This document shows, piece after piece, positions 33,901 to 36,900 of a DNA stretch of 64,000 bases. Within the stretch, counting starts at the first letter, position 1. Every line of letters starts with the position of its first letter. The stretch spans positions 1,550,001 to 1,614,000 of the forward strand of contig NC_090968.1 of assembly GCF_040807025.1 (NCBI RefSeq). Direction: 5' to 3'. Source of the stretch: Struthio camelus (Eukaryota; Chordata; Aves; Struthioniformes; Struthionidae). The notes below the pieces were generated by a model. That model did not search any database. It saw only the letters and a program-made list of their open reading frames with translations, and had not been told where the DNA came from. A program made the translations under genes and the position numbers.

Positions 33901-36900
33901 TCCCGCCCCCATCCCCATCCCGCCCCCCATCCCCATCCTGCCCCCATCCCCATCCCGCCCCCATCCCCATCCCGCCCCCCATCCCCATCCTGCCCCCATC
34001 CCCATCCTGCCCCCCATCCTGCCCCCATCCCCATCCCGCCCCCCATCCCCATCCTGCCCCCATCCCCATCCCGCCCCCCATCCCGCCCCCATCCCCATCC
34101 CGCCCCCCATCCCCATCCTGCCCCCCATCCTGCCCCCATCCCCATCCTGCCCCCCATCCTGCCTCCCATCCCCATCCTGCCCCCCCATCCTGCCCCCATC
34201 CCCATCCCGCCCCCCATCCCGCCCCCCCGCCCCCCGTTTTGTTTTGCAGTCACTGTGTCCATCAGCTCTTAGCAAGCGTTACTTATAGCCATCACTTTGC
34301 CATTGTGCCCGGGCATCTGCAGGTCAGTATAACCCCGCGGGCCGGCCGGGCGCCCGGCCGCCCGGCCCCCGCCGCCCCCGCCCGCCGGCCCCGCCGCGGG
34401 CCTCGCTCCCCCCCCCCCCCCCAAAAACATTTCCTTTTTTTGGGGTTTTTTTTTGGTCCTTCCCCCCGCCCCCGGCGCCCCCTGCCCTCCCCAAGCGGGT
34501 GCCCCCCCCCATTTCAGCCTCTCATCTCCCTGCTCCTTCCCTCTTTCTTTCTTGTCTCGTCTCCATCGCCCTCCCCGTGCACCCCCCCCCCTCCCCTGTG
34601 AGTCCTGTCTCGGGGGCCCAGGCGTCCGGGCAGCGGCAGGGCTGCGGGGTGGCGTGGGGTGAGGAGGAGGGGGGGGTTAAACAGAGCAGAGCGGCACTGT
34701 TTTGGGGGGGCGACCCGTGCCCCAAGCGGCCACCGCAGTGCTGAGCGCGCCCACCCGTGGGTGCACTGGGGCGTACTGGGCTCCCAGTAGGAGCTTTACT
34801 GGGACTGGGAGGTGACGGGACAAGGGGGGGGGGGGCGTCCCCATGTCCCCAAGGGACACCCGCAGCCCCCCCCGCCCCCGACCTCGCAGCCGGGTGGGTG
34901 CCCCACGGGGCCACCCCGGGGTGCTGGGGGCCCCTCCGTGCCCCCCTGGGTGACCGTCTCCCAGCAGTCCCGCGGCGGAGCCGGAGACCCCGGGGCCAGG
35001 TAGGGACGGCCCAGGGGGTCCCCAAAACGCTGGGGTGCCGGGCACCCGCAAGGGGTGGTTTCGGGGGGGTGACTTGTGCTGGAGCAGGACGGAGGGCACA
35101 GGAAGGGGGGGGTCTCCCCCATGGGTGCTTTCCCGTCCCCCCTCCTCCCCCCAGCGTGCGGTGGGGCCCCCGCGCTGCCCCCTAACCTGCCCCGCCGCCT
35201 TTGCCCGCAGCCACTGCATCCAGCAGATCCTCGAGGCCGTGCTCCACTGTCACCAAATGGGGGTCGTCCACAGGGACCTCAAGGTGAGTCCGGTGTCCCC
35301 ATGTCGCCCCTCTGGGTCCCCCTGGGTCTGAGGGGACATGGTGCTGGAGCTGTGCTACCGGCTGCTGCTAGGATGCAGCAGTGGAGCTGGGCTGTGGGAT
35401 CGTGCTGGGAGGCAGGGACAGAGATGAGACAAGGTGTCCCTGGGACGTGGTGGTGGAGCTGCGGTACGGCCTTGTGCTGGGATGGGCGGCGGAGCTGGGC
35501 TGCGGGATCACGCTGAGACGCTCTCATGAAACAGGGCCATGAAATCGTGCTGGGACGCGGTGAAGGAGCTGGGAAATGGAGGTTGCTGGGATGCAGTGAT
35601 GGAGCTGGGCTATGGGTTTGTCCTTAGATGCAGTGATGGATCTGAGCTATGGGTTTGTCCTTAGATGCAGTGATGGATCTGGGCTGTGGGTTTGTCCTTA
35701 GATGCAGTGATGGAGCCGGGCTGTGGGTTTGTCCTTAGATGCAGTGATGGATCTGAGCTATGGGTTTGTCCTTAGATGCCGTGATGGATCTGGGCTGTGG
35801 GTTTGTCCTTAGATACAGTGATGGATCTGGGCTGTGGGTTTGTCCTTAGATGCAGTGATGGAGCCGGGCTGTGGGTTTGTCCTTAGATGCAGTGATGGAG
35901 CCAGGCTGTGGGTTTGTCCTTAGATGCCATGATGGAGCTGAGCTATGGGTTTGTCCTTAGATGCCATGATGGATCTGGGCTGTGGGTTTGTCCTTAGATG
36001 CAGTGATGGAGCCGGGCTGTGGGTTTGTCCTTAGATGCAGTGATGGAGCCAGGCTGTGGGTTTGTCCTTAGATGCCATGATGGATCTGGGCTGTGGGTTT
36101 GTCCTTAGATGCAGTGATGGAGCCGGGCTGTGGGTTTGTCCTTAGATGCCGTGATGGAGCCAGGCTGTGGGTTTGTCCTTAGATACAGTGATGGAGCCGG
36201 GCTGTGGGTTTGTCCTTAGATGCCGTGATGGATCTGGGCTGTGGGTTTGTCCTTAGATGCCATGATGGATCTGGGCTGTGGGTTTGTCCTTAGATGCAGT
36301 GATGGAGCCAGGCTGTGGGTTTGTCCTTAGATGCAGTGATGGATCTGAGCTATGGGTTTGTCCTTAGATGCCGTGATGGATCTGGGCTGTGGGTTTGTCC
36401 TTAGATACAGTGATGGATCTGGGCTGTGGGTTTGTCCTTAGATGCAGTGATGGAGCCGGGCTGTGGGTTTGTCCTTAGATGCAGTGATGGAGCCAGGCTG
36501 TGGGTTTGTCCTTAGATGCCATGATGGAGCTGAGCTATGGGTTTGTCCTTAGATGCCATGATGGATCTGGGCTGTGGGTTTGTCCTTAGATGCAGTGATG
36601 GAGCCGGGCTGTGGGTTTGTCCTTAGATGCAGTGATGGAGCCAGGCTGTGGGTTTGTCCTTAGATGCCATGATGGATCTGGGCTGTGGGTTTGTCCTTAG
36701 ATGCAGTGATGGAGCCGGGCTGTGGGTTTGTCCTTAGATGCCGTGATGGAGCCAGGCTGTGGGTTTGTCCTTAGATACAGTGATGGAGCCGGGCTGTGGG
36801 TTTGTCCTTAGATGCCGTGATGGATCTGGGCTGTGGGTTTGTCCTTAGATGCCATGATGGATCTGGGCTGTGGGTTTGTCCTTAGATGCAGTGATGGAGC

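Follow-up and report, generated by a model that had tools for sequence, protein, structure and literature searches.

The window, the whole stretch of 64,000 nucleotides analysed here, lies on contig C27 of a genome of 1.45 Gb in 262 contigs, and carries CAMK2B exons 1-10, which give an intact CaMKII beta kinase domain on translation. Intron 5 of the gene (32562-35210) contains a second, diverged version of exon 6, referred to below as 6a. The features that matter for its interpretation are the following:

32496..32561, + strand: CAMK2B exon 5, the upstream splice partner common to 6a and exon 6 (translation, splice scores, frame)
33216..34235, + strand: C-rich degenerate tandem array of several overlapping repeat rows, which fills the intron to 14 bases before 6a (repeat scan)
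34236..34249, + strand: 3′ splice site of 6a, GTTTTGTTTTGCAG (sequence, weight matrix)
34250..34322, + strand: exon 6a, diverged 73-nt twin of CAMK2B exon 6 with HRDLK changed to PGHLQ (homology, frame, placement scan)
34323..34330, + strand: 5′ splice site of 6a, GTCAGTAT (weight matrix; the identical eight bases follow the first exon-6-type end of CAMK2D)
35211..35283, + strand: canonical CAMK2B exon 6 (“6b”) (translation, homology, frame)
39799..39901, + strand: CAMK2B exon 7, the downstream partner common to 6a and exon 6, carrying the stops at 39819 and 39842 (frame)

Two other repeats were seen in introns of the gene; a 37-bp minisatellite (about 76 copies, 91% matches) occupies much of intron 6 (35590-38420), and a 64-bp tandem repeat (about 10 copies, 96% matches) is found at 31461-32118, within the intron that precedes exon 4.

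A sequence-only reading of the window had drawn attention to this 73-nt segment, with its acceptor (gttttgttttgcag), donor (CAG/gtcagt), phase and length, and to an ungapped match to exon 6 of about 39/73 bases and 9/25 residues. The segment is as described there, and the match is exactly 39/73 nucleotides and 9/25 amino acids between two exons of equal length (73 nt each) and phase; the common residues are S114, H115, C116, Q119, L121, V124, H128, V133 and L137. Since 6a is short and intron 5 offers 60 AG and 100 GT sites, a chance resemblance within the intron could be imagined. Yet none of 20,000 dinucleotide shuffles reached 39 matches (mean 19.1, sd 3.7), and when introns 5 and 6 were scanned at 7,018 placements, 6a among them, the next best match was only 33/73; together, the shuffles and the placement scan rule out a chance match, to which we assign a negligible probability. 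Similarly, the BLOSUM62 score between 6a and exon 6 is 54, against a best value of 37 in 20,000 DNA shuffles and of 42 in 100,000 residue permutations. 6a is confirmed as a true homologue, a duplicate, of CAMK2B exon 6. The same reading had also noted that 6a contains no stop; the frame is indeed open, but this is weak evidence alone, because the C-rich intron keeps that frame open for 949 codons around 6a. Each of the other two frames of the 73-mer contains one stop or more.

Other sources for the segment were considered. A retrocopy or dispersed repeat is unsupported, as genome searches with the DNA and with the peptide each return 6a itself only, although these searches were coarse and missed known exon-6 relatives too, so that diverged copies could escape them. 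A recent copy of the CAMK2G exon or of the neighbouring exon is ruled out by identities of 44/73 and 39/73, respectively.

Splice sites were scored with a hand-written weight matrix. By this matrix, the 6a donor (CAGGTCAGT) scores 8.5 and ranks second of the 100 GT sites of intron 5, while the acceptor scores 9.2 and ranks second of the 60 AG sites; the canonical exon 6 obtains 12.1 for its donor and 7.2 for its acceptor. Candidate branch adenines within 100 nt of the 6a acceptor are found at -34, -46, -52, -63, -76, -82 and -94, all of them inside the C-rich array. The search for splicing-factor motifs gave nothing diagnostic; TGCATG is absent from the 300 nt on either side of 6a and of exon 6, and occurs once at 39579.

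The reading frame places a strict condition on the use of the two copies. Transcripts joining exons 5-6-7 and 5-6a-7 are both open through exon 10. Inclusion of both copies (5-6a-6-7) leads to a stop in exon 7 at 39819, 83 nt from the exon end (stop included), and skipping of both (5-7) to a stop in the same exon at 39842. The frame constraint proposed earlier, that only one copy can be included, is thereby upheld, and because both or neither breaks the frame, 6a and exon 6 are exclusive in any full-length product. In the available portion of Pillmann et al. 2011 (PMC3228551), mutually exclusive homologous exons are recognised by length, splice sites, frame and homology; 6a agrees with exon 6 in all four, which makes it a candidate mutually exclusive exon by these standards, and it shows in addition a property that we added, namely that the frame is lost when both copies are included or both are skipped. 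A comparable vertebrate pair is formed by exons 4a/4b of OGDH, whose mutually exclusive use gives calcium-sensitive and calcium-insensitive subunits; according to the sections available, the choice in OGDH is enforced by distant branch points (PMC7969005), whereas in CAMK2B it is seen to be enforced by the frame only.

The frame could also serve another purpose. Were 6a spliced together with exon 6, the resulting frameshift would lead to nonsense-mediated decay, and 6a would be a poison exon tuning the CAMK2B level while making no protein. The stop of the 6a plus 6 transcript precedes the next junction by 83 nt, which exceeds the 50-55 nt usually required for nonsense-mediated decay, and the 888-nt intron between 6a and 6 (34323-35210) poses no steric bar to joint splicing. 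Nonetheless, a poison exon needs neither the length, nor the phase, nor the residues of exon 6, yet 6a keeps the length and the phase, and its differences from its relatives fall mostly on third codon positions. We rank this explanation third and hold it to be quite improbable.

When 6a takes the place of exon 6, H-R-D-L-K (134-138) becomes P-G-H-L-Q, with H134, R135, D136 and K138 replaced by P, G, H and Q. In the numbering of the window protein, the 6a form is without the catalytic Asp136, which is His, and without Lys138, which is Gln, just as had been claimed for the alternative form. These loop changes are radical, one of them being a proline. With 6a in place, the hypothetical kinase domain is still matched by Pfam Pkinase from end to end (profile 1-263), scoring 224.9 bits, compared with 257.3 bits for the exon 6 form. 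A CaMKII beta containing 6a, if this exon is spliced in, should be inactive. A CaMKII protein without catalysis exists in alpha-KAP, which lacks the kinase domain, whereas the 6a form would be full-length. A closer likeness is offered by CaMKII alpha D135N (PMC11088445), a CaMKII without catalysis in which the mutated residue, alpha D135, corresponds to beta D136, the one replaced in 6a. D135N is a laboratory mutant which, in the portion of that paper available, awaits fuller characterisation, whereas the 6a product would be a natural full-length form.

Loss of functional residues from one copy of a duplicated exon has been described in other proteins. For the 236 human duplicated-exon events, the accessible text of Martinez-Gomez et al. 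2022 (PMC9741552) names three genes, ACTN1, ACTN4 and ACAN, where one copy lost most or all predicted binding residues, and none of the three is a kinase. They are like 6a in that one alternative region lost predicted (calcium) binding residues, and unlike it in being non-kinases, with the loss affecting ligand-binding residues instead of catalytic ones as in 6a.

The other CAMK2 genes of the same genome, named by sequence likeness, provide a context for the origin of 6a. Between exons 5 and 7, CAMK2D (C4) shows two exon-6-type ends, each with HRDLK plus a donor, and CAMK2A (C13) and CAMK2G (C7) show a single exon 6 each. CAMK2D therefore differs from CAMK2B in that HRDLK is kept at both readable ends, whereas 6a lost it. 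Immediately downstream of the first CAMK2D end come the eight bases GTCAGTAT that also follow 6a, and downstream of the second comes GTGAGT, as after the canonical CAMK2B exon. None of the other nine donors of CAMK2B exons 2-10 has a C at position +3, and neither do the donors of CAMK2A, of CAMK2G and of the second CAMK2D copy. In the 16 exon bases that were compared, 6a agrees with the first CAMK2D end at 9/16 and with the second at 7/16; the canonical CAMK2B exon agrees with each at 13/16, and because of this, the exon bases alone leave the pairing with the CAMK2D copies unsettled. The case for a sister relation of 6a and the CAMK2D copy comes from these 16 exon bases, together with 8 intron bases and the position in the gene. 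As a separate observation on the kinase matches of this genome, several occur on both contigs C40 and C41 and score the same or nearly so, a pattern that sex chromosomes with little divergence, or two haplotypes, would give.

Full-length comparisons could be made with the other two genes. 6a matches exon 6 of CAMK2G at 44/73 bases and 12/25 residues, that of CAMK2A at 42/73 and 9/25, and its own neighbour at 39/73 and 9/25; against the CAMK2D peptide it shares 11/25 residues. Over codons 1-20, its identity is 8/20 to exon 6 and 11/20 to CAMK2G. On bootstrap, 6a is nearer to CAMK2G than to its neighbour in 87% of replicates, and nearer than to both the neighbour and CAMK2A in 62%. The suggestion that 6a is closer to the CAMK2G/CAMK2D type was thus borne out by the residue counts (12/25 and 11/25 versus 9/25), and is qualified by the two bootstrap values. 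The accompanying proposal of an old duplication is backed by the two exon-6-type ends of CAMK2D, the first of them with the donor of 6a. A scan of introns 4, 5 and 6 of CAMK2A and CAMK2G for relics of a second copy gave no score above the highest from 40 introns simulated for each, although CAMK2A intron 6 came closest, with 18.0 against a null maximum of 19.2; such relics are expected but not required if the pair is ancient.

Because CAMK2D has two such ends, with donors like those of 6a and of the canonical exon, and CAMK2A and CAMK2G have one copy each, the probable origin of 6a is an exon-6 pair that predates the CAMK2B/CAMK2D split and of which 6a would be the survivor in CAMK2B. We infer a common origin of 6a with the CAMK2D pair; one old exon-6 pair would have been kept in CAMK2D, have shrunk to a single copy in CAMK2A and CAMK2G, and have become dead-looped in CAMK2B. 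Concerning the origin only, and thus overlapping with the other readings, exon 6 may instead have been duplicated locally and separately inside CAMK2B, followed by fast divergence. 6a does not group significantly with CAMK2G, the end of the canonical CAMK2B exon is equally like both CAMK2D ends (13/16), and the CAMK2D comparison covers a small part of each exon copy, all of which agree with a separate event. However, such an event has to face the GTCAGTAT donor common to 6a and the first CAMK2D copy, the same order of donor types in the two genes, and the likeness of 6a to CAMK2G (12/25), which exceeds that to its neighbour (9/25). We therefore consider a separate duplication improbable.

In human CAMK2D, the accessible text of Martinez-Gomez et al. 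(PMC9741552) reports a tandem duplicated exon substitution in the kinase domain adjoining the predicted ATP site, and Hatje et al. 2017 (PMC5740500) describe, in the part available, four clusters of mutually exclusive exons in CAMK2D. As the source text gives no residue numbers, the human kinase-domain pair is placed at the exon 6 position as probable only. It resembles 6a in belonging to the same gene family and the same kinase domain. The CAMK2D exon-6-type pair of the present genome is new here beside the earlier reading of the window, while the pair in human CAMK2D was, as far as the accessible text goes, already published (PMC9741552). From the portions available, CaMKII variation is mostly within the linker (PMC9772828), the variable regions of CaMKII delta are between exons 13 and 17 and between exons 20 and 22 (PMC7991079), and other CAMK2 events have been reported (PMC4801060). 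The CaMKII delta review (PMC7991079) mentions neither “exon 6” nor “mutually exclusive”, the main text of PMC4465641 mentions neither CAMK2 nor CaMKII, and the available sections of PMC9177970 hold nothing on a 6a exon. In the open-access literature, with supplements and most subscription papers outside the scope, we found no report of a CAMK2B exon-6 twin or of its expression.

The pattern of substitution in 6a bears on whether the exon is in use at present. Its differences from relatives are highest at third codon positions (first/second/third: 9/6/14 against CAMK2G, 12/5/14 against CAMK2A and 12/5/17 against exon 6). Constraint on the relatives explains part of this excess, and therefore the 6a branch was fitted with a constrained and a neutral phase. 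For all 25 codons, the best neutral time among the values tried was 0.25 substitutions per site, with zero neutral time 3.1 lnL worse and 1.0 substitution per site 7 lnL worse. For codons 1-20, zero neutral time costs only 0.8 lnL, so that any relaxation would be concentrated in the catalytic loop. We also simulated the chance that such a segment stays intact, i.e. acquires no indels or stops and keeps both splice dinucleotides, assuming 8% indels per substitution (4,000 runs each); it was, after rounding, 0.48, 0.15, 0.06 and 0.000 at 0.07, 0.17, 0.25 and 1.0 substitutions per site, respectively. The sum of lnL and the log of this chance peaks at about 0.1-0.17 substitutions per site, zero being about 1.1 lower and 0.33 about 2 lower. 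With an assumed neutral rate of 2e-9 per site per year, the peak corresponds to 49-83 My.

Under these assumptions, neutrality for 0 to roughly 165 My would fit. Neutral decay of 6a since the split of CAMK2B and CAMK2D, which we take to be early-vertebrate in age, would fit badly and appears strongly disfavoured. Because decay since the split fits badly, and decay up to about 165 My fits, both a live kinase-dead exon and a relic are possible. Codon models were run on four sequences of 25 codons, in two analyses that differ in their branch-length bounds, so that lnL values are comparable only within each. A foreground omega fixed at 1 and a free one differ by 0.1 lnL (the free value of 7.4 being the upper bound), whereas the background omega forced on 6a is 2.6 lnL worse for all codons and 0.35 worse for codons 1-20; for all codons, having no neutral time is 2.5 lnL worse than omega fixed at 1. 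The omega of 6a cannot be pinned down, because silent sites are saturated and several parameters are at their bounds.

Base composition adds a further signal. GC3 is 13/25 in 6a versus 233/273 in exons 1-10 (binomial P 8e-5), the lowest single exon having 20/28. The value is unusual for the gene, not for the family, since exon 6 has 16/25 in CAMK2G and 19/25 in CAMK2A. Overall, 6a forms an AT-richer island with 51% GC in an intron of 74%; a GC content as low as that of 6a is found in 1.4% of the 73-nt windows of the intron and in 13.6% of those of the whole window. Because freely silent coding sites should follow the GC drift of the gene, constraint at the RNA level, as in regulated exons, may be the simplest reason for the low GC3 of 6a.

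These figures have to be read against the possibility that 6a is a relic, an old twin that was long functional, is now disused in this lineage and is decaying, with PGHLQ being a product of decay and not of adaptation. In its favour, the joint fit is best with about 0.1-0.17 neutral substitutions per site and loses about 1.1 units when decay is set to zero, a free foreground omega fits no better than a value of 1, and 4/5 of the HRDLK residues are altered. On the other hand, the splice sites, frame and length are intact, whereas the simulated chance of this is down to 0.15 once 0.17 substitutions per site have accumulated, and to 0.06 after 0.25; by GC3 (13/25 versus 233/273), silent sites seem to have been kept from following the GC drift of the gene, and codons 1-20 show no significant relaxation. 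A recent relic would fit the substitution pattern about as well as an exon in use, and we rank this reading second, as a substantial possibility.

The single most likely reading, although held at slightly less than an even chance as a whole chain, is that 6a comes from the old pair and is now a minor mutually exclusive exon giving a catalytically dead subunit. Homology, splice-site ranks, frame logic, the CAMK2D pair, third-position changes, GC3, the decay fit and the Pkinase match were counted for it; counted against it were the loop changes, the 8/20 identity over codons 1-20, the preference of the fit for some neutral time, the limited bootstrap and the lack of a relic in CAMK2A and CAMK2G introns. 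In this chain, a tandem exon 6 pair would have arisen before the CAMK2B and CAMK2D genes separated. CAMK2D would have retained two copies, both ending in HRDLK, with CAMK2A and CAMK2G now showing one each. In CAMK2B, the downstream copy would have become the standard catalytic exon, and the upstream copy would have lost the catalytic loop residues, with its length, phase and splice sites preserved along with part of the pre-loop helix. Splicing of 5-6a-7 would then yield a full-length CaMKII beta that keeps the regulatory segment and hub and performs no phosphate transfer. Such a kinase-dead beta may join mixed holoenzymes, where, because it keeps the hub but cannot transfer phosphate, it would act as a structural, activity-diluting subunit. 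Both the present splicing of 6a and this effect on holoenzymes, like the dominant-negative role suggested earlier, are inferred, whereas the homology, splice anatomy, frame logic, residue loss and the two CAMK2D ends were observed. The earlier interpretation as a whole is supported in part.

Perhaps a stronger version applies, in which CAMK2B of this lineage, and possibly more widely, uses a conserved mutually exclusive exon as a native counterpart of D135N, splicing would set the share of catalytic subunits per holoenzyme, and the pair would predate the CAMK2B/CAMK2D split, both copies staying active in CAMK2D and only one persisting in CAMK2A and in CAMK2G. We regard this version as rather unlikely, but worth stating. 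The enzymatic roles of CaMKII exist beside structural ones, and engineered mutants, D135N among them, help to tell the two apart, as the available portion of PMC11088445 describes. If the stronger version is true, a natural exon that abolishes catalysis but spares the hub, the regulatory segment and the greater part of the kinase domain would show that splicing lets animals adjust the balance between the two roles. Were 6a no more than a relic, it would still help to place the origin of the CAMK2D exon pair before the CAMK2B/CAMK2D split, and would show that CAMK2 genes differ in the number of exon copies they kept. Such differing retention among the CAMK2 genes is comparable to the cases of CACNA1 and FYN in the accessible text of PMC9741552.
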